DNA of 64,000 nt from Fangia hongkongensis FSC776 = DSM 21703 (GTDB lineage: Bacteria > Pseudomonadota > Gammaproteobacteria > Francisellales > Francisellaceae). The notes beneath the pieces were generated by a model. It worked only from the letters and a program-made list of their open reading frames with translations. It searched no databases and had not been told where the DNA came from. The stretch spans positions 217,152 to 281,151 of the forward strand of contig NZ_KB902240.1 of NCBI RefSeq assembly GCF_000379445.1, read 5' to 3'. The position numbers and the translations under genes are program-made. This document shows positions 6,251 through 16,748 of this stretch, piece after piece. Numbering within the stretch: the stretch's first letter is position 1; every line of letters begins with the position of its first letter.

Positions 6251-7210
6251 ATGGAAATACTCAATAATTTAAAAGCGATACTGCACTCCAAACGCGCTAA
6301 TATTTATTATCTTGAAAAATGTAGAGTCATGCAAAAAGATGGACGAGTATTATATTTAAGTGAGGACAAAGCCGAAAATAAATATTGGAATATTCCAATT
6401 GCCAATACCACAGTTATTTTACTCGGCACGGGAACTTCAATTACTCAAGCTGCCATGCGTATGCTTGCACAAGCAGGCGTACTGGTTGGTTTTTCAGGCG
6501 GTGGTGCAACTCCTCTTTTAATGTCAACTGAAATAGAATGGATGACACCTCAAAGTGAGTATCGCCCCACAGAGTATGTTCAAGGTTGGATGCGTTTTTG
6601 GTTTAATGAACATTGTCGTCTTGATGTTGCAAAACACTTTCAAAATTGTCGCTTAAAGTTTATTCAAAAAACATGGTCCAATAATCGAGACTTTTCAGCC
6701 TACGGGTTTGATGCTCAGAATCAAGCGCTTAATGAACTTATCATACAAACCAAAAATAAAGTTGATCATGCTGAAAATGTCACTGAGCTTCTCACCATCG
6801 AAGCTTATCTTACCAAAAAACTGTATAAATTTGCTGCAAGTAACACAAAGTATGGTCAATTTTCTCGCCAACATGATGCTCAGGATCTTGCCAATACTTT
6901 CTTAAATCATGGTAATTATTTGGCATATGGTTTAGCAGCCTCCACATTATGGGTGTTGGGCATTCCTCACGGCTTTGCAGTAATGCATGGGAAGACAAGG
7001 CGCGGCGCTCTTATTTTCGATGTTGCAGATCTTATCAAAGATGCTGTAATTTTGCCGTTAGCTTTTATTTGTGCACATGAGAAAGCGACTGAACAAGAAT
7101 TCAGACAACAGTGTCTACAGGCTTTTACTGATTATAAATGTCTTGATTTTATGTTTAATACTGTCAAGGATGTCGCGCTTAATACCGTCCATGAGGACCT
7201 ACCATCATGA
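6251..7210 (+). CDS. cas1: CRISPR-associated Cas1, type I-F
   Basis: This is the 319-residue integrase subunit of the adaptation complex, which inserts new spacers at the leader end. Metal-binding residues expected of Cas1 lie in LTIEAYLTKKLYKF (Glu), VMHGKTRRGAL (His) and FDVADLIKDA (Asp). The I-F type is shown by its cas2-3 fusion partner, which overlaps the cas1 stop by four bases (ATGA), implying coupled translation. A GGGCGG site precedes the ATG. The gene appears intact, so acquisition should be functional. Confidence 0.96.
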   Translation: MEILNNLKAILHSKRANIYYLEKCRVMQKDGRVLYLSEDKAENKYWNIPIANTTVILLGTGTSITQAAMRMLAQAGVLVGFSGGGATPLLMSTEIEWMTPQSEYRPTEYVQGWMRFWFNEHCRLDVAKHFQNCRLKFIQKTWSNNRDFSAYGFDAQNQALNELIIQTKNKVDHAENVTELLTIEAYLTKKLYKFAASNTKYGQFSRQHDAQDLANTFLNHGNYLAYGLAASTLWVLGIPHGFAVMHGKTRRGALIFDVADLIKDAVILPLAFICAHEKATEQEFRQQCLQAFTDYKCLDFMFNTVKDVALNTVHEDLPS

Positions 7211-10200
7211 TGGTTATTTTTGTGTCTGAGTGTGAGAAAAAAGCATTAAAACGCACAAGACGTGTACTTGATGCCTTTGCTAATCGCATTGGCAATAACA
7301 CTTGGCAAACAGTGATTACACAAGAAGGCTTGCTTGCAGTTCAAACACTTCTTCGGAAAACAGCCAGTAAAAATACTGCCGTCAGCTGTCATTGGATACG
7401 TAGTCGCTCAAGAAGTCAGTTTTTATGGGTGGTTGGAAACAAATCAAAATTTAATACTGAAGGGGTTGTTGCTGTTAATTCAACAAAAAAAAATCCATTT
7501 GATACTTATATTGAGAGTGACTGGCAATATTTACCCTTAATAAAAGCGCTCGTTGCGCTATCCGCTTTATTGCATGATTGGGGTAAAGCTTCTGAACTAT
7601 TTCAAAAGAAGCTTGCACCAACAAGCAAAAACAAATATAAAGCCGACCCTTTAAGGCATGAGTGGGTTTCAATCCTATTACTTAAAGCCTTAATCGGAAA
7701 TAATGACAATAGTGATAAAGCTTGGTTATCTTGCTTAAGTGATGGAGATATACCTGAAAACGAATTAAAAGAGAACATTATAAACGAGAAAAAGCCACTT
7801 TCTCAACTACCACCTGCAGCTAAACTTATTGCCTGGCTGATTGTCTCACATCATAGATTGCCTCAAACCAAAGAAGATTACCGTGGAGAGGCATCAGCAA
7901 CTATTGATAGCCTTTTAAATCGCATTACAAAAGAATGGGGATATTGCAATAACCAATATAAGCAAGAGGATAACAGGAATGAAAATGATTGTTTAAAATT
8001 TCCAGAAGGTCTTTTAACAAAATCACGTAAGTGGTTAAAGCAGCTTAAACGCTGGGCAAAAAACTTGAGCGATATGTTACCCTTGATTGACTCTGCCATG
8101 CAAGATGGTAGTTATCGCGTTATCTTACACCATGCTCGCCTGTGTTTAATGCTGGGAGATCACTATTACTCATCACAAGATGCTGCAAAAAATTGGCAAG
8201 GTGAAATAGAGTTATATGCAAATTCAGATAGAAAAACCAATGAGTATAAACAAAGATTAGATGAACATTTGCTTGGTGTTGCTGAAAATGCCTTAAGAAC
8301 AGCTCATCTTCTGCCTGCTTTCGAGCAAGAACCTCCTGTTGTTAAAAATACTCATGAGCTGAAAAAACCAAGTCCAAACGGCTATAAATGGCAAGATAAA
8401 GCAACGGAAGAAATTCATCAGTGGAAACAGCAGGTGGATATAAATAAAGTAGGTTTTTTTGCTGTTAATATGGCAAGTACTGGGTGTGGGAAAACCTTTG
8501 CAAATGCTAAAATCATGCATACATTGTCTCTTGACGGCGAGAGCTTACGCTATATTTTAGCATTAGGTTTACGAACATTGACTTTACAAACAGGTGATGA
8601 GTACCGCAAGCGTGTTAAACTAACTAAAAAAGAGCTTGCCGTGCTTATTGGTTCAAAAGCAATTGCTGAGCTGCATGCTAATAACTCATCATTTGATGAA
8701 GATAAATCCGAAGAAGAGCTGGGCTCAGAGTCCAAAGAAAGTTTATTAGATGAATATGTGGACTATGAGTGTGATCTTCCAACTGATGGGCTAACGACCG
8801 TTTTAACAACAAATAAAGCGAAACAGTTTTTATATGCCCCTGTGTTAACTTGCACTATAGACCATATTATAGCAGCAACCGAAACTAAGCGTGGTGGCCG
8901 TTATATATTACCTTCTTTGCGCTTGATGTCATCAGATTTAGTAATCGATGAGATTGATGACTTTACAGGGTCTGACTTGGTTGCCATTGGTCGATTAATA
9001 CATTTGGCAGGAATGTTGGGTCGCAAGGTAATGATTTCTTCTGCAACCATCCCACCACACTTAGCTCAAGGATACTTTAACGCCTATCAAGAAGGTTGGC
9101 AGCTTTACTGTTTGACGCGTAGTAGCGCAAAACCTTTCATCGGTTGCGCTTGGATAGATGAGAATAATACAAAAATCTCTAGCTTAACTCATTCACAAAA
9201 TAAAGGTTCTTTAATTGATTATTTAGATACGCATAATCAATTCATTAAGAAAAGAGTATTAAAGCTCAGTAAACAAATTGCGAGACGCAAGGCTGAAATT
9301 ATTGCTTGCCCTCTAAATAATGCTGAGAATTTAAAAAACTCAATAGAAAACAGAGAAACTAAAGAACGAGAATATTTTGCAAAGATAAAAGAAGCATTAA
9401 TGCTTAAACATCAACAACATCATAGTATTGATCGAGTGACAAACAAAAAAGTTTCTTTTGGCGTGGTGCGTATGGCAAATATTACCCCTTGTGTTGCTTT
9501 GACTCGATATCTATTGCAAGAGCAGTACCCAAAAAATATACAAATAAAAGCTATGGCATATCATAGCCAACAGGCTTTATTATTGCGCCATGAGCAAGAG
9601 AAGCACTTGGATACTGTGTTAACAAGAAAAGAGCAATCAAATGAGCAGCCACAAGCATTTTCTAATGCGCTCATTCGTGAGCATCTTGATTCTTGTGTAG
9701 CTCAAAATGTTATATTTATTCTGGTTGCAACGCCTGTGGAGGAAGTTGGTCGTGATCATGATTTTGATTGGGCAATTGTTGAACCATCATCATATCGCTC
9801 AATTGTTCAGTTAGCTGGCCGTGTGCTAAGGCACCGACTTAAAGAAATTGATGCGCCCAACATTGGCATAATGCAGTATAATTTTAAGGCTTTTCAAGCA
9901 AATGATAAAACAGATTGTAAATACTTCATTCAACCCGGGTATGAGAATGGTATAAACAAAGCTTTATCAACCCATGATTTAGAAAGACTCGTAGATAAGC
10001 AGATGTTAATGCATAGTATTACGGCAATCCCTAGAATACAAATTCCCCCAGTTCCAAAAGAACAGCAACTTGCTGCACTAGAGCATTACGTGACTAAAAA
10101 CATATTAGCCCAGTTTAACGCTAAAGGACCTAATACGCTTCAAGGTTATTTAACAGAAACTTGGTATTTAACAGCTTTACCACAGGTTTTACAGCCATTT

Positions 10201-10557
10201 AGACTTAGCGAGAAAAGTCAAAACTTGTTTTTAGTTTATAACGAAAATCTATCTTGCTGTTATTTCACTGAGAAGGATAAATGGGGAGAGATATTAAGCG
10301 ATATAAATAATAATCCAGTTAATCGGGAAAAAATCTTGGATATCTCTCATGCTACACTTTCTGCTGAAGCGTTGCAAAATCTATGGTTAGTTCGTGATTA
10401 TTCAAACTTGTTATCCCAATATATTGATGTCTCTGGAGCATCACTTGCAACAAGAGCAGCAGTTTCGCTACGTTACGGTGAATTAAATATAGTTAAACGG
10501 GAAAACACAAAGTATGAATACAGTGACCAACTTGGATTAGTAGAAAAGAAAGCATGA
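7207..10557 (+). CDS. cas3: Cas2-Cas3 fusion nuclease-helicase, type I-F
   Basis: At 1116 residues this is the characteristic I-F fusion. Residues 1-90 form a Cas2 domain. An HD nuclease follows (ALLHDWGKAS near 120, RHEW near 150, SHHRLP near 215). The SF2 helicase has Walker A in ASTGCGKTFA near 423, a DEID box in LVIDEIDDF near 580, motif III SSATIPP, and motif VI QLAGRVLRH near 870. The protein acts both in spacer acquisition with Cas1 and in degrading DNA bound by the Csy complex. All catalytic motifs are intact. Its 3' end would be overlapped by read-through of the minus-strand guide RNA proposed at 10568-10642. Confidence 0.96.
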   Translation: MMVIFVSECEKKALKRTRRVLDAFANRIGNNTWQTVITQEGLLAVQTLLRKTASKNTAVSCHWIRSRSRSQFLWVVGNKSKFNTEGVVAVNSTKKNPFDTYIESDWQYLPLIKALVALSALLHDWGKASELFQKKLAPTSKNKYKADPLRHEWVSILLLKALIGNNDNSDKAWLSCLSDGDIPENELKENIINEKKPLSQLPPAAKLIAWLIVSHHRLPQTKEDYRGEASATIDSLLNRITKEWGYCNNQYKQEDNRNENDCLKFPEGLLTKSRKWLKQLKRWAKNLSDMLPLIDSAMQDGSYRVILHHARLCLMLGDHYYSSQDAAKNWQGEIELYANSDRKTNEYKQRLDEHLLGVAENALRTAHLLPAFEQEPPVVKNTHELKKPSPNGYKWQDKATEEIHQWKQQVDINKVGFFAVNMASTGCGKTFANAKIMHTLSLDGESLRYILALGLRTLTLQTGDEYRKRVKLTKKELAVLIGSKAIAELHANNSSFDEDKSEEELGSESKESLLDEYVDYECDLPTDGLTTVLTTNKAKQFLYAPVLTCTIDHIIAATETKRGGRYILPSLRLMSSDLVIDEIDDFTGSDLVAIGRLIHLAGMLGRKVMISSATIPPHLAQGYFNAYQEGWQLYCLTRSSAKPFIGCAWIDENNTKISSLTHSQNKGSLIDYLDTHNQFIKKRVLKLSKQIARRKAEIIACPLNNAENLKNSIENRETKEREYFAKIKEALMLKHQQHHSIDRVTNKKVSFGVVRMANITPCVALTRYLLQEQYPKNIQIKAMAYHSQQALLLRHEQEKHLDTVLTRKEQSNEQPQAFSNALIREHLDSCVAQNVIFILVATPVEEVGRDHDFDWAIVEPSSYRSIVQLAGRVLRHRLKEIDAPNIGIMQYNFKAFQANDKTDCKYFIQPGYENGINKALSTHDLERLVDKQMLMHSITAIPRIQIPPVPKEQQLAALEHYVTKNILAQFNAKGPNTLQGYLTETWYLTALPQVLQPFRLSEKSQNLFLVYNENLSCCYFTEKDKWGEILSDINNNPVNREKILDISHATLSAEALQNLWLVRDYSNLLSQYIDVSGASLATRAAVSLRYGELNIVKRENTKYEYSDQLGLVEKKA

Positions 10558-10567
10558 GCATAATGAG

Positions 10568-10642
10568 GAGGCAAGCTGCCTATACGGCAGTATTATCATT
10601 ATATAAAATGACATTTTCTAAGCTGCTTGTTCAGCAGTTGAC
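10568..10642 (-). ncRNA. Putative crRNA-like regulatory guide (two pseudo-repeats with a 19-nt pseudo-spacer)
   Basis: Read on the minus strand, 10642-10615 matches the array repeat at 23 of 28 positions and ends in an unchanged CTTAGAAA, the 8-nt handle of I-F crRNAs. Its stem is CTGCT/AGCAG, a compensated change from CTGCC/GGCAG. A second pseudo-repeat at 10595-10568 keeps positions 5-23 exactly (ACTGCCGTATAGGCAGCTT), including the full Cas6f hairpin and cleavage site. Between them lie 19 bases (10614-10596) instead of 32. Cas6f cutting would release a 47-nt RNA (10622-10576). The pseudo-spacer matches the csy1 promoter beside a CC PAM (see 10750-10770). A possible minus-strand -10, TACATT, lies at 10659-10654. 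Expression and function are inferred; the repeat and target matches are read directly. Confidence 0.75.
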
Positions 10643-10749
10643 AGACTCAGTCTAATGTAAAAAAGATGAGAAGAAAAGTAACAAATACGATGAGACAAAA
10701 AACTATTAGATAAACCTGAAACTTGCTTGTTTATCACATAAGAAATTAT

Positions 10750-10770
10750 TTATTATTTAAAATGACATGG
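10750..10770 (-). promoter_or_regulatory. Predicted target of the crRNA-like guide in the csy1 promoter, with CC PAM
   Basis: On the minus strand, CC (10770-10769) is followed by ATGTCATTTTA (10768-10758), identical to the first 11 bases of the pseudo-spacer. Over all 19 pseudo-spacer positions there are 17 identities, and the mismatches are at positions 12 and 18. In type I Cascade structures every sixth guide base is flipped out and does not pair, so these mismatches should be silent. CC directly 5' of the protospacer is the established I-F PAM. The site overlaps or abuts the likely -35 region of the csy operon. Confidence 0.7.
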
Positions 10771-10799
10771 ATTTCAAATAATTATATTTGATATATACT
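10762..10799 (+). promoter_or_regulatory. Promoter region of the csy1-csy4 operon
   Basis: A TTGACA-like ATGACA (10762-10767) is followed 15 bp later by TATATT (10783-10788). A second -10 candidate, TATACT, lies at 10794-10799 with only a weak -35 upstream. Either gives a start 20-40 bp before csy1. No open reading frame lies between the promoter and csy1. The ribosome site is weak (AAGGG, about ten bases from the ATG). Confidence 0.5.
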
Positions 10800-10830
10800 C
10801 CTTTGTAAGAAATAAAAAGGGCTTATTTTT

Positions 10831-12084
10831 ATGAATAAAATAATTACAGCATTTTTTACGGAAAAAAAAGAGGCGTGGTTAAAGAAAAACCTCAAAGCTT
10901 CTATGACTGACAATGAAATGGCAGTGCTCAAATCAGAATGTGAGCATACTTTTTCATTAAATGTGTGGCTGCCTAGTGCAGCAAAAAGAGCGGGACAAAT
11001 ATCTATAGCAACACACCCATGTACTTTTAGTCACCCAAGTGCCAGAAAAAACAAAAATGGCTATGTCACTTCAATAATAGCAAATATAGAACAAGCAAAT
11101 GATGGATTTTTGAAAACAGGTAATGTGTCTGTTATGAGTGATGCTTTGGGGAATGCTGCAGCATTAGATGTATATAAGTTTCTTTCGCTTGTTATGGAAG
11201 ATGGGAGAAGCCTTCTGAGTCATATCCAACAAGACTCTAAACTTGCAAAGGAGTTGCTAAATCTCGATGCTGCAAATTATGAAGAACTGAAAAGTGGTTT
11301 CTTAACCATGATAGCAAGCTCGACAGAAAATATAACCAGTTCAAAAATAAAGCAAGTCTATTTCCCTGTTGGTGATGACTATCACCAACTATCTTTATTA
11401 ACCAACTCAGGAATAGTATATGAGCTTAGAAATCGCCTTGATTCTTTGCGGTTTTCAGATAGTGTAAAAGAGCTGCGAGCTAAAAAGTATAATAATGAAT
11501 ATAGCGAACAAGGTTATAGCGAAATTTATAATTTAACAACAATAGGTTATGGTGGAACTAAACCGCAAAACATAAGTGTGTTAAATAATCAACATGGTGG
11601 TAAGGCACACTTGTTATTATCTGTGCCCCCAAGCATAGAAAAACGTAATACTTATTTCCCAAAGCGTGACTTTTTTATTGAATCCATGCAAAAAGCTCAC
11701 TATATCGGGACATTCAAAGCATTACATAAAATTTTTCAATTAGATTATAACAATATCAAAATTCGAAATGCTCGAGACTATCATTTACAAGAGCTGATGA
11801 ACATGATAGTTGAGAATATGTGGGCAGTGCGTTTAGTTTCAGTCGCTCAATATCACGAAGAAACCTCAACCTTGGAAAAATGGCAACTTATTTGGTTACA
11901 TGAGAACTTTGAAAAAGAACGAGAGGACTCAGAACAGTGGTTAGAACAGCTAGTTAAAAACATTTCTCATTGGATTTCTCAAACCTACGAAAAAATAATG
12001 GAAAAACAAGCAATAAAACTAGGTGAGGCTGAATATAAGCACATATCAAATATTGTGGAACAAAATAAGGAGGCATTACGATGA
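10831..12084 (+). CDS. csy1: Csy1 (Cas8f), large subunit of the type I-F Cascade
   Basis: This is a 417-residue Csy1 protein, which together with Csy2 binds the crRNA 5' handle and recognises the CC PAM in the type I-F surveillance complex. It is identified by size, by position as first gene of the csy operon, and by family-like stretches such as LNVWLPSAAKRAGQISIATHP and KPQNISVLNNQHGG, with a helical C-terminal region. It overlaps csy2 by four bases (ATGA). The gene has its own promoter, separated from cas2-3 by 273 bp that carry the crRNA-like guide locus, so interference and adaptation genes can be regulated separately. Confidence 0.93.
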   Translation: MNKIITAFFTEKKEAWLKKNLKASMTDNEMAVLKSECEHTFSLNVWLPSAAKRAGQISIATHPCTFSHPSARKNKNGYVTSIIANIEQANDGFLKTGNVSVMSDALGNAAALDVYKFLSLVMEDGRSLLSHIQQDSKLAKELLNLDAANYEELKSGFLTMIASSTENITSSKIKQVYFPVGDDYHQLSLLTNSGIVYELRNRLDSLRFSDSVKELRAKKYNNEYSEQGYSEIYNLTTIGYGGTKPQNISVLNNQHGGKAHLLLSVPPSIEKRNTYFPKRDFFIESMQKAHYIGTFKALHKIFQLDYNNIKIRNARDYHLQELMNMIVENMWAVRLVSVAQYHEETSTLEKWQLIWLHENFEKEREDSEQWLEQLVKNISHWISQTYEKIMEKQAIKLGEAEYKHISNIVEQNKEALR

Positions 12085-13007
12085 GCGAAATAAAAAAGTT
12101 ACTGTTGTTGCCACATATCAACATCCAAAATGCTAATGCACTCTCTAGTCCTTTAACAATTGGTTTTCCTGCTATAACTGCCTGGCTCGGTGCAGTGCAT
12201 GCCTTACAACGTAAACTTAATGCTTTAGGTTATGAAGACTTGAAGTTCATTGCAACAGGTATAGTCAGCCATCGTTGTGATATACAAACATATAAAAATG
12301 AAGGTGATTATGTTCATTCTATTATTGGCACGGCTAATCCACTAGATAAATCAGGTGCTCGTAGTGCATTTATTGAGGAAGCACGCTGTCACTTAGATGT
12401 ATCTCTTTTAATTGAATATAATGGAATTACAAAAGATGATGAAAACGAATTAATAGAAAAAATAAAACATATACTACATGCCAAGATGAAATTAGCAGGG
12501 GGCGATATTCTCTCTTTTAAGCCCCCTGCCTTTTTCAAAGTAGAAACAGGAAATGGTAAGGATATGCATACACTGAGGCGTAAACTTATGCCCGGCTATG
12601 CATTAATTGAGCGTCGTGATTTAATGGTCGCAGCAATGGAAAACGGTCAAGATGCCATTGACGGGTTGTTGGAGTATTTATGTATTCATCACACTTGTGA
12701 GTATGATGATAAGGATAAGGTTATCTGGTCAAGTGCGCGTAAAGCCAAAGGCTGGATTGTGCCTATTGCTATTGGTTTTCATGGCATTTCTGCGTTAGGC
12801 ACAGCTAAAAATCAGCGAGATCCTGATACGCCACACAGGTTTGCTGAGAGTGTTGTGACATTAGGCGAATATAAAATGCCCCATCGAATAGAGTCAATAA
12901 ATGAGATTATGTGGCACTACAAGACAACTGAACAAGACAACTTATATCTATGTACTCAGTCCAAAAGCCAACCAGAATTAGATGAATTGTTTGATTTGTT
13001 TAATTAA
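12081..13007 (+). CDS. csy2: Csy2 (Cas5f), type I-F Cascade subunit
   Basis: This is a 308-residue Cas5-type RAMP protein that forms a heterodimer with Csy1 and holds the crRNA 5' handle. The N-terminal LLLLPHINIQNANALSSPLT and the following GFPAITAWLGAVHAL are family signatures, as is the glycine-rich AGGDILSFKPP near residue 140. It begins inside the csy1 stop (four-base overlap) and ends 27 bp before csy3. The gene is intact, with no change of codon style from its neighbours. Confidence 0.94.
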   Translation: MSEIKKLLLLPHINIQNANALSSPLTIGFPAITAWLGAVHALQRKLNALGYEDLKFIATGIVSHRCDIQTYKNEGDYVHSIIGTANPLDKSGARSAFIEEARCHLDVSLLIEYNGITKDDENELIEKIKHILHAKMKLAGGDILSFKPPAFFKVETGNGKDMHTLRRKLMPGYALIERRDLMVAAMENGQDAIDGLLEYLCIHHTCEYDDKDKVIWSSARKAKGWIVPIAIGFHGISALGTAKNQRDPDTPHRFAESVVTLGEYKMPHRIESINEIMWHYKTTEQDNLYLCTQSKSQPELDELFDLFN

Positions 13008-13034: not shown

Positions 13035-14066
13035 ATGGCAAAAAATAATAATACTGTATCTGTTCTAGCGTTTGAGAAAAAATTAGTCCCATCCGATGGC
13101 TATATGTATGGTACTAATTGGCATGATAGATCAAAACAAGTGCCATTGAAGTTAACGGAAAAATCTGTGCGTGGAACCATCTCGAATCGTTTAAAACCCG
13201 CAATTAAAAATGACCCAGTTAAACTCAATGCAGAGGTAGAAAAGGCAAACTTACAAACGGTCGATACCTGTGCGCTTTCTCCTGAACATGATACGTTGCA
13301 ACTGCGTTTTACGTTAAAAATTCTTGGTGGGCTTCAGGAGCCATCAGCCTGTAATAATGTAGAGTTTAAGCAAAGCTATGCTAAAGCGGTGAGTGATTAT
13401 ATTGAAAGAGAGGCTTTTACTGAACTCGGTAAACGTTATGCACAAAACCTTGCCAATGCTCGTTTTTTGTGGAGAAACCGTGTTGGTGCTGAAAATATTG
13501 AGGTACAAATCCATATTTTAAATAACAATATTGATCAAAAATGGACGTTTGATGCAACCAAATTTAGTACACGTAACTTTGATTGTAATGATGACAATGT
13601 GATTGCTTTGGGTAAATACATAGCCAAGGCGTTGGCAAGTAAAGATGATTTTCTAATGCTTAAGATAAATTGTTTTGTGAAAGTTGGCAGCGGGCAAGAG
13701 GTATATCCTAGTGAAGAATTAGTGTTAGATAAAGGAAACAGTAAAACTAAGAAAAGCAAGATACTATACTCAGTCAATGGAATTGCAGGCATGCATTCAC
13801 AAAAAATAGGTAATGCACTAAGAAGTATTGATACATGGTACGCCGAGTTTCATGACCCTGAGAAGACGGCAGGTGTGATTGCTATCGAGCCTTATGGCGC
13901 AGTAACTAATTTGGGCAAAGCCTACCGAACACCTAAAGAAAAACAAGACTTTTATACTTTTTTTGATCAATGGGCTAGAGGTACTAACCTTAAGCGCATT
14001 GAGGATGAGCACTATGTTATGGCTGTACTTGTTCGTGGCGGTGTTTTTGGTGAGAGCGATAAGTAA
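13035..14066 (+). CDS. csy3: Csy3 (Cas7f), backbone subunit of the type I-F Cascade
   Basis: The 343-residue Csy3 protein normally oligomerises as six copies along a 32-nt spacer and flips out every sixth base of the guide. The start VLAFEKKLVPSDGYMYGTNW, RGTISNRLKPA and ANARFLWRNRVGAE are recognisable family segments. AGGAAGC precedes the ATG, a stronger site than that of csy1, consistent with higher copy number in the complex. It is followed by csy4 after eight bases. The unusually short pseudo-guide upstream of csy1 would hold fewer Csy3 copies, if it is used. Confidence 0.95.
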   Translation: MAKNNNTVSVLAFEKKLVPSDGYMYGTNWHDRSKQVPLKLTEKSVRGTISNRLKPAIKNDPVKLNAEVEKANLQTVDTCALSPEHDTLQLRFTLKILGGLQEPSACNNVEFKQSYAKAVSDYIEREAFTELGKRYAQNLANARFLWRNRVGAENIEVQIHILNNNIDQKWTFDATKFSTRNFDCNDDNVIALGKYIAKALASKDDFLMLKINCFVKVGSGQEVYPSEELVLDKGNSKTKKSKILYSVNGIAGMHSQKIGNALRSIDTWYAEFHDPEKTAGVIAIEPYGAVTNLGKAYRTPKEKQDFYTFFDQWARGTNLKRIEDEHYVMAVLVRGGVFGESDK

Positions 14067-14074
14067 GGTAAGAT

Positions 14075-14668
14075 ATGAAATATTATATTGATATAACAAT
14101 ACTGCCAGATGCAGAGGCAAGTTTAGATTTTCTTTGGCGCAAAATATTTCAACAAATTCATTTAGCGCTGGTTGAAAATAAAAACAAGGATAACAGCTCA
14201 TCCATTGCTATTAGCTTCCCACTCTACTGTAAGGCTACGTTTCCATTGGGAAATAAACTAAGGCTATTTGCACTATCAGAGAGCCCATTGAAAACAGCAA
14301 ACATTGATTATTGGCTGAAGAGATTAAAAGACTACTGTCATATCACATCAGTTAAAGCTGTTCCTATTCAACATACATTTGCTTGCTTTAGTAGGAAACA
14401 GGTGAAATCCATAGAAAATAAAGCTAGACGACGAGCTAAAAAATTGAACGTTGACTATAAAGAAGCTCTTAAGTTTTTTAAGCATAAAGAATCAGAATTA
14501 TCATGTACACTCCCTTTCATTCAAGCAGTCAGCCAGTCTACATCTACCCCGCAAAAGCACCAAAACACTTTTCCTTTATTTATTGAAAAAAAAGAAAGTG
14601 ATGTAGTAATAAATGGATCATATGATTGCTATGGTCTAAGCAAAACTGCAACGGTCCCAATATTTTAA
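14075..14668 (+). CDS. csy4: Csy4 (Cas6f), crRNA-processing endoribonuclease
   Basis: This is a 197-residue Cas6f that cuts 3' of the repeat hairpin and stays bound to it. His29 (IFQQIHLAL) occupies the position of the catalytic histidine of P. aeruginosa Csy4. An arginine-rich helix (ENKARRRAKKLN) for the RNA major groove is present near residues 120-130, and the C-terminus carries the typical YGLSKTATVP motif. It ends the csy operon and is followed by the array leader. A short inverted repeat (AACCTT/AAGGTT) overlaps the stop codon but has no U-run after it. Confidence 0.95.
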   Translation: MKYYIDITILPDAEASLDFLWRKIFQQIHLALVENKNKDNSSSIAISFPLYCKATFPLGNKLRLFALSESPLKTANIDYWLKRLKDYCHITSVKAVPIQHTFACFSRKQVKSIENKARRRAKKLNVDYKEALKFFKHKESELSCTLPFIQAVSQSTSTPQKHQNTFPLFIEKKESDVVINGSYDCYGLSKTATVPIF

Positions 14669-14799: not shown

Positions 14800-16748
14800 G
14801 TTCACTGCCGCACAGGCAGCTTAGAAACTTCATACGTAAAATAATCTCTAAGATCATCTGTTCACTGCCGCACAGGCAGCTTAGAAAGTCAATGATACCC
14901 TTGCAGTAGGTTGTCAACAGTTCACTGCCGCACAGGCAGCTTAGAAAGTCTGAAAAAGGGAAGTTAGCTACAATTACGTGTTCACTGCCGCACAGGCAGC
15001 TTAGAAACTTAACAATTAAATCCATCAACGAGGCGTTGAGTTCACTGCCGCACAGGCAGCTTAGAAAGCATCACTTAAGATACACTTTAAAAAGCCCCCG
15101 TTCACTGCCGCACAGGCAGCTTAGAAACACCGAGGGCTGACTTTATCTAATGGGAATTTGTTCACTGCCGCACAGGCAGCTTAGAAATTATTGTTAAAGG
15201 GCTCAGCCAGTATCTCTTAGTTCACTGCCGCACAGGCAGCTTAGAAATCATGATCTTCTTATTAACGTTGATTATATTGGTTCACTGCCGCACAGGCAGC
15301 TTAGAAAAATCTGAGTAAGGAGATAGACATGAGATTCAAGTTCACTGCCGCACAGGCAGCTTAGAAACAAAGGACGGGGGATTGTCAGACGTGGTGGAAG
15401 TTCACTGCCGCACAGGCAGCTTAGAAATAGTCAAGAAGAAGCTATTGCGTAATTGATTAGTTCACTGCCGCACAGGCAGCTTAGAAAATTGTATGTAAAG
15501 TTATCTTTAATTAAATCGTGTTCACTGCCGCACAGGCAGCTTAGAAAATATACTTCTTTAGCTGCGTCAAGATATGATCGTTCACTGCCGCACAGGCAGC
15601 TTAGAAAAGATTCTTGGTTATACGGAACTATACTTATATGTTCACTGCCGCACAGGCAGCTTAGAAAATTATATACATAGATACCACTGTGTCAACAAAG
15701 TTCACTGCCGCACAGGCAGCTTAGAAATACCAGTTGAAGTATCTCCGGTATGTCCTCCAGTTCACTGCCGCACAGGCAGCTTAGAAAAGCTTATTGCGCT
15801 TAGGCATAATGACGGTTTCGTTCACTGCCGCACAGGCAGCTTAGAAAATATCAGCAGCAATTAGCAGCTTAATAGCGTAGTTCACTGCCGCACAGGCAGC
15901 TTAGAAAACTCATTTTTATCTAGATCTGCTAAAGCTCTTGTTCACTGCCGCACAGGCAGCTTAGAAATCAATTAAAAAGTCAATATCCTGCTCACCATCG
16001 TTCACTGCCGCACAGGCAGCTTAGAAATCAAAGACATTAGTTGAAGCCCAGTTGCTACCGTTCACTGCCGCACAGGCAGCTTAGAAATCTATCTTTTCAT
16101 GAGACTTCTTTGCGATTTTGTTCACTGCCGCACAGGCAGCTTAGAAATCATCATAGGATCGAGTAACCGTTTGATTGGCTGTTCACTGCCGCACAGGCAG
16201 CTTAGAAATTCACCCACATCTTCTTTTTCGCCCACCCAGTGTTCACTGCCGTATAGGCAGCTTAGAAATTTAAAAGACATCAAGGCTCCGCAAGGATTGC
16301 GTTCACTGCCGTATAGGCAGCTTAGAAACAACTGACATAGCCCTCTACCTCTGGCGCAAAGTTCACTGCCGTATAGGCAGCTTAGAAATCTTCTTTGTAC
16401 TTTTCGCTGTGTTTTCTCTAGTTCACTGCCGTATAGGCAGCTTAGAAATCGCCATCATGATATTTGACGTTGAGTGATTCGTTCACTGCCGTATAGGCAG
16501 CTTAGAAAATGCCCTTTAAGCTTGTGGTCATATTAAGATAGTTCACTGCCGTATAGGCAGCTTAGAAATAAAGTAGGAAGGCCATCAGCAGCATTATAAA
16601 GTTCACTGCCGTATAGGCAGCTTAGAAATCGATAAAGAAATCAGGCGAGCTAAAAGTGCCGTTCACTGCCGTATAGGCAGCTTAGAAATGCAATTAATAC
16701 AGGGGTATTGACTGGAAAGAGTTCACTGCCGCACAGACAGCTTAGAAA
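14800..16748 (+). CRISPR. Type I-F CRISPR array: 33 repeats, 32 spacers
   Basis: The 28-bp repeat begins GTTCACTGCC and ends CTTAGAAA; it contains a CTGCC/GGCAG stem. Spacers are 32 bp, except the 23rd (16148-16180), which is 33 bp. The first 24 repeats have the loop GCACA, the next eight (from 16241 to 16661) have GTATA, and the last (16721) has GCACA with a stem mutation (GACAG). The perfect repeats lie next to the leader at csy4, so transcription is on the plus strand. One spacer (starting 15328) reads AAGGAGATAGACATGAGA, which looks like a ribosome site with a start codon of a targeted gene. I see no spacer matching the rest of this window. Open frames inside the array are artefacts. Confidence 0.99.

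Follow-up and report, generated by a model that had tools for sequence, protein, structure and literature searches.

A predicted CreR-like type I-F1 mini-array upstream of csy1 in Fangia hongkongensis

A minus-strand mini-array lies between cas2/3 and csy1 in a type I-F1 CRISPR-Cas locus of Fangia hongkongensis, within the 64,000-nucleotide stretch of DNA that we analysed (the window). It most likely encodes a cas-regulating (CreR-like) RNA of type I-F1 that makes the Csy complex repress csy1-cas6f. CreR are RNAs that regulate cas genes (Liu et al. 2023, as described in the available text of PMC12737573 and PMC13131331). Our reading draws on the repeats, hairpins, handle, guide, target, PAM and predicted promoter boxes, and on the co-variation of guide and target in related loci.

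Results

The window contains a complete type I-F1 locus (cas1, cas2/3, csy1, csy2, csy3, cas6f and an array). The cas operon and the array appear intact.

6251..7210, plus strand: cas1f
7207..10557, plus strand: cas2/3 fusion, its end just 5' of the mini-array
10831..12084, plus strand: csy1 (cas8f), the predicted regulated gene
12081..13007, plus strand: csy2 (cas5f)
13035..14066, plus strand: csy3 (cas7f)
14075..14668, plus strand: cas6f (csy4), predicted to cut the mini-array RNA
14800..16688, plus strand: ordinary CRISPR array with 32 exact repeats, 24 of the GCACA type and then 8 of the GTATA type (a looser search gives 33 copies)

We judged the host from one housekeeping protein in the window. 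Among the 120 matches listed, this protein is 98% identical to its best record, 80-81% identical to proteins of Cysteiniphilum, Caedibacter and Facilibium, and 72-77% identical to those of Francisella and Allofrancisella, which suggests that the host is related to the Cysteiniphilum/Caedibacter group. Besides the window's own Csy1, the 119 relatives listed (the best of 2286 matches) show 62-69% identity, and those with names come from Thalassotalea, Colwellia, Pseudoalteromonas and other marine genera. A csy1 match is present in 3 of 30 genomes of the host's family, the window's own genome counted. Because Csy1 is closest to marine genera among the matches listed and csy1 occurs in so few genomes of the family, horizontal gain of the I-F1 locus would fit.

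The gap between cas2/3 and csy1 (10558-10830) is 273 nt long, has 28% GC and holds the mini-array on its minus strand.

10615..10642, minus strand: R1, the first repeat-like unit, with a hairpin at 10623-10637 and the 5' handle CTTAGAAA at 10615-10622
10596..10614, minus strand: 19-nt guide (pseudo-spacer) ATGTCATTTTATATAATGA, 17/19 to its target
10568..10595, minus strand: R2, the second repeat-like unit, with a hairpin at 10576-10590 and a decayed handle part
10576..10622, minus strand: predicted 47-nt processed crRNA-like RNA, with inferred cut sites

Re-reading the sequence bore out the anatomy proposed in the initial annotation, namely two repeat-like units at 23/28 and 19/28, a compensated stem in R1, an intact Cas6f hairpin in R2, and a perfect 8-nt handle. 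No other segment of the window outside the array matches the array repeat as well as R1 does (23/28; the next best reaches 19/28). For R2, the GTATA-type repeats fit better (19/28) than the GCACA type does (17/28), as had been claimed. The R1 stem reads CTGCT/AGCAG where the array has CTGCC/GGCAG, a compensated pair change. Both hairpins are predicted to fold as the array repeat does, that of R2 being an intact Cas6f-type hairpin. Cas6f cuts after the hairpin in type I-F. The predicted 47-nt RNA would start with CUUAGAAA at 10622 on the minus strand, and its coordinates agree with the RNA of about 47 nt placed at 10622-10576 by the initial annotation. An ordinary immune array has spacers of about 32 nt and near-identical repeats; here the spacer is 19 nt long and the repeats match at 23/28 and 19/28. 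Two repeat units enclosing a spacer near cas genes are the arrangement of a cas-regulating mini-array. In the array at 14800-16688, the last eight exact units, which follow the GCACA-type repeats, are of the GTATA type that R2 resembles. Read on the plus strand, R2 also scores as an intrinsic-terminator-like site 3' of cas2/3 (10575-10591).

The target of the guide lies upstream of csy1.

10750..10768, minus strand: target (protospacer) ATGTCATTTTAAATAATAA, matching the guide
10769..10770, minus strand: CC PAM (GG on the csy1 strand)

As first described, the guide matches 10768-10750 at 17/19 positions, with mismatches only at positions 12 and 18 and CC at 10770-10769. All 15 informative guide positions and the CC PAM are intact. 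The spacer is partly complementary to a predicted cas promoter beside the PAM of the subtype, which is the second feature of a cas-regulating mini-array. When the guide was shuffled 2000 times, no version attained a seed as long as the observed one at CC-flanked sites between 700 nt upstream of csy1 and 60 nt inside it. Searching the 2.95-Mb genome (37 contigs) for CC followed by guide positions 1-17, any base being allowed at 6 and 12, returned one exact match, the csy1 promoter; the same search at one mismatch returned no match. The guide's own locus carries AA in place of CC, i.e. two differences from the searched pattern.

We surveyed related loci for the same element. Homologues of Csy1 led to 80 named loci. 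A structural search for two hairpins and one handle, with a start-to-start spacing of 40-66, was run on 79 named loci and the window; it found the element in 20/80 loci, and 17 of these 20 had a CC-flanked match at first ranking by seed. A joint search for guide and target, which scores positions 1-18 without 6, 12 and 18 and needs only one hairpin and a handle, picked the same 20/80. The scans did not include L030, whose csy1 sits at a contig start, or L011 (26% identity). We then defined set 1 as 140 loci: the 79 named loci, the window, 58 loci from class and order samples, L010 and L012. With CC and a score of at least 12/15, the joint search found 26/140 loci, or 25 after we dropped L042, whose target overlaps its own repeat unit. 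Eleven other dinucleotides at 12/15 gave 0-2/140 each, and three altered handles gave 0-1/140. Extra sampling by order brought little gain.

Set 2 consisted of 44 upstream regions, mostly from csy1 matches that are 22-40% identical, with a few fragments; the exceptions are L189 (64% identity over 84 residues) and L220 (53%). The joint search with CC found 19/44. Other dinucleotides gave 0-7 at score 12; at score 14, CC gave 14, CT gave 2 and all others gave 0. CT is also accepted as a PAM by the Aggregatibacter I-F1 Cascade, according to the available text of PMC7296934. In L195 and L208, the best target of the guide has a CT rather than a CC PAM (score at least 14/15).

The element is missing from 115/140 loci of set 1. 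It occurs in 0/65 loci with a cas3-csy1 gap below 150 nt and in 25/53 with a gap larger than 150 nt, 22/140 loci having no assignable upstream gene. This contrast is partly trivial, since the element (about 75 nt plus the target) hardly fits the shortest gaps.

Guides and targets change together across these loci. Set 1 guides share a median of 6/18 identical letters between loci, L040 and L134 having identical first 18 letters. Each guide matches its own target at a mean of 14.1/15 informative positions (selected at 12 or more), compared with a mean of 5.8 against the targets of other loci, where 7/600 cross pairs reach 12. For a pairing profile we removed similar guides from sets 1 and 2, which left 35/44. 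The unscored positions 6, 12 and 18 match in 36/105 cells (34%), against a cross-locus level of 33.8%. The remaining positions up to 17 match in 489/525 cells, a figure raised by the selection itself, and at the unscored positions 19-24 matches fall to 13-18/35. With positions 6, 12 and 18 at background and a drop past 18, guides pair up to about position 18 and no constraint is seen on every sixth base, a pattern that would be expected for a type I backbone. L204, L205, L206 and L209 have similar guides, and in these loci position 2 of guide and target changes together (T in two, G in two), which looks like a compensatory change at short range.

The initial annotation had named co-variation of pseudo-spacer and promoter in relatives as a check, and the survey bore it out. 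Conservation with co-variation of guide and target, the third feature of a cas-regulating mini-array, was found in 25/140 and 19/44 loci, and the rule that every sixth base goes unread held. The CC PAM was specific. With other dinucleotides at no more than 2/140 and CC at 26/140, AT-richness, which had been named as a possible source of the matches, is not the explanation. A chance match beside a decayed piece of array might be suspected in so AT-rich a gap (28% GC), but the shuffled guides, the genome search, the dinucleotide controls and the pattern at the unscored positions all speak against it; we regard its probability as negligible.

Co-variation also bears on the idea that the RNA acts chiefly as a decoy, its repeat-like parts titrating Cas6f or Csy proteins, with the promoter match secondary. 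Decoys of this kind are known among RNA anti-CRISPRs (Racrs): in the available text of PMC10651486, a repeat mimic is processed by Cas6f in type I-F and can trap type I-F Cas6f and Cas7f. Those Racrs are solitary repeats on viruses or plasmids (PMC10651486), whereas here two repeats enclose a guide inside a complete cas locus. A decoy would need no promoter match, yet both the match and the PAM persist as guide sequences diverge, and we consider this explanation very unlikely.

The initial annotation called the guide unusually short. This is true against the 32 nt of the array but not within the window's clade, where 15/25 guides are 19-20 nt long, the window counted. Guide lengths in set 1 are 14-15 (3 loci), 19-20 (15), 25-28 (6) and 33 nt (1). 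They fit 6N-4 (n=25, Rayleigh R 0.70, p about 5e-6), with the lengths for L039 and L068 taken by hand and relatives that are not independent. Set 2 guides are 20-21 (4), 26-27 (3), 30-31 (8), 36 (2) and 38 nt (2) long. Their fit to 6N-4 is R 0.40, p 0.05, with the bulk at 30-31, off the 6N-4 steps. As set 2 does not clearly repeat the pattern, we confine the claim of length steps to the window's clade.

These lengths can be compared with published biochemistry, cited here from the available text of PMC7296934. The Cas7 number in the I-F1 Cascade follows L = 6N-4, and Cascades with 14-26-nt guides assemble, bind and form R-loops. Truncated Cascades with R-loops below 32 bp do not trigger Cas2/3. 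Shorter spacers bind more weakly, with reduced suppression in vivo. The truncated-spacer Aggregatibacter Cascade of that study was engineered; the window's short guide is predicted to be a natural regulator. We tentatively suggest that in the window's clade the regulatory guides have evolved towards set lengths, about 14, 20 and 26 nt, each of which would accommodate a whole number of Cas7f subunits (6N-4). The cell may then assemble a dedicated small Csy complex with roughly four Cas7f rather than six. Too small to call Cas2/3, this complex would serve purely as a repressor, its PAM end lying against the csy1 -35 box. Among the matches listed, our literature search, with most subscription papers outside its coverage, found no account of stepped guide lengths among natural I-F regulators.

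The same data argue against a self-targeting immune spacer that causes cleavage or priming. Such a spacer would show the PAM and seed match seen here, but it would be expected to have 32 nt and not 19. In relatives the pairing ends near position 18, and I-F1 R-loops cut to less than 32 bp do not trigger Cas2/3 (available text of PMC7296934). We see only a very slim chance for this reading.

Predicted promoter boxes lie beside the target and before R1.

10771..10776, plus strand: csy1 -35-like box ATTTCA, directly after the PAM
10794..10799, plus strand: csy1 -10-like box TATACT, with a 17-nt spacer to the -35
10649..10654, minus strand: weak -10-like box TAGACT (4/6) before R1

For each locus we took the highest-scoring -35/-10 pair whose start falls 0-2 nt past the PAM's GG complement and compared it with pairs at nearby positions. 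The test took in 19 minus-oriented targets of set 1; 6 plus-oriented targets and set 2 were left out. Over the 19 loci combined, the pair adjoining the PAM stands out with p 3e-11, a rough value because neighbouring positions are not independent. It ranks in the best tenth in 12/19 loci, and its spacer is 17 nt in 16/19. L145, one of the 19 loci tested, had no -35/-10 pair beside the PAM. In the window the csy1 -35/-10 pair taken alone is not significant, as 11% of nearby positions score equally well. The combined result supports the proposal that the guide is aimed at the csy1 promoter. Csy bound at this site might also activate or insulate csy1 instead of repressing it, given that the protospacer is upstream of the -35-like box and not over the -10. 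Against such an effect, the -35-like box follows the PAM end without a gap, and repression is what has been described for relatives of this design (available text of PMC12737573); we consider it remote.

A cas-regulating mini-array would also be transcribed on its own and processed by Cas6. A TATAAT-like box (5-6/6) ends within 9 nt of R1, typically at 2 nt, in 18/25 loci, and the same box is found in 25/100 background windows. The weak TAGACT (4/6) of the window is the main doubt about mini-array activity in this genome. A general promoter scan of the minus strand at 10500-10900 gave two matches, where shuffles give 2.0. One overlaps the mini-array. The other, at 10809-10781 (10/12), is about 140 nt before R1 and could serve the mini-array, its match being at chance level. 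The match at 10809-10781 overlaps the csy1 promoter region. If this promoter is real, Csy bound at 10750-10770 would likewise occupy the point where the mini-array transcript begins.

Repeat decay also relates to activity. We scored the 23 loci in which a script had assigned R1 as well as R2, requiring an R1 handle of at least 6. R1 has kept its handle (7.7/8) and lost its first five bases (1.8/5); R2 has kept its first five bases (3.7/5) and lost its handle (4.0/8). Judged by position, the kept parts would be those of the mature crRNA-like RNA, and the lost parts lie outside it. In the window, R2 retains 3/8 of the handle part and 1/5 of the first five bases, the latter being the most decayed among the 23 loci scored. 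The guide is predicted to fold on itself with 7 base pairs, which could slow loading; some pairing within the guide is found in 14/23 processed RNAs, the window counted. The weak -10, the decay of R2 and the folding of the guide would all suit a regulator that has recently become a relic in this genome, its guide-target match remaining after transcription or loading was lost. The 15 informative positions and CC PAM are intact, however, and so are both hairpins, one of them through a compensated change. We consider a relic unlikely and favour an active CreR-like regulator.

Other short-spacer mini-arrays and hairpins came up in the searches. With a pattern of 12-23-nt spacers and a fixed repeat, we found 18 viral stretches (L171-L188) with short-spacer I-F mini-arrays, their spacers 14-21 nt long and some guides present twice. 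Viral guides scored at most 10-13/15 against the available csy1 upstream regions, with no control run; a score of 15 for L178 was discarded as apparently repeat matching repeat. L175 (viral contig IMGVR_UViG_3300007188_000005) has four consecutive 20-nt spacers between I-F-like repeats at about 7803-7947, and no convincing csy1 target for them was found among the csy1 upstream regions compared. The gap at 10558-10830 had no match in the phage collection. In Campylobacterota, six loci (L026, L039, L044, L051, L057 and L092) have a further repeat-like hairpin 46-89 nt upstream of csy1, and another csy1-leader hairpin was seen by eye in L036. These hairpins are of the ATACT-GAATA-AGTAT type; the stem in L057 is changed and still pairs at 4/5. 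The Campylobacterota leader hairpin is possibly a Cas6f site in the csy1 mRNA. Six loci outside Campylobacterota that pass the leader-hairpin filter probably do so by chance.

Discussion

We propose a self-control circuit in which Cas6f would cut the mini-array transcript to a 47-nt crRNA-like RNA that is loaded by the Csy proteins. The loaded Csy complex would bind the DNA immediately upstream of the csy1 -35 box, abutting it, and there block transcription of csy1-csy2-csy3-cas6f. Judging from published I-F1 biochemistry, the guide of about 20 nt would hold about four Cas7f and form a short R-loop with no Cas2/3 trigger. When ordinary crRNAs or anti-CRISPRs take up Csy proteins, repression would presumably fall and more Csy would be made.

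Standalone repeats that form mini-arrays, mostly in type I, and whose spacers match cas8 promoters in part were reportedly described by Shmakov et al. in 2023, and an I-F1 mini-array is said to have been shown experimentally in that work to be a regulatory guide. The kind of element that we analysed is already described, as CreR and reportedly also as an I-F1 regulatory mini-array. The initial annotation knew of no description of this locus; our literature search also found none on it among the matches listed (most subscription papers lie outside its coverage). As portrayed in the available text of PMC12737573, CreR share with our element a mini-array within the cas locus and a guide that is complementary to a cas promoter only to a limited extent, and their autorepression is said to track crRNA abundance and anti-CRISPRs, as we predict here. 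They differ in type: the available text of PMC13131331 gives types I-B, I-E and V-A, whereas our element is of type I-F1 and has a 19-nt guide.

CreTA and CrePA resemble the mini-array in that their crRNA-like RNA directs the effector to a promoter through partial matching (available text of PMC12737573), but the promoter targeted here precedes csy1 itself. In CreTA a toxin gene lies under the targeted promoter. Only 31 nt separate the -10-like box (ending at 10799) from csy1 (starting at 10831); we rejected CreTA because this leaves no room for a toxin gene.

Our analysis places a predicted self-control circuit in a relative of the Cysteiniphilum/Caedibacter group and identifies 44 loci in which the guides of type I-F systems vary together with targets that lie upstream of csy1. 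The guide-length steps, if true, would offer a direct test of how the number of Cas7f separates binding from cutting. If the circuit operates as predicted, it would explain how the Csy complex is kept low until crRNAs or anti-CRISPRs use it up.
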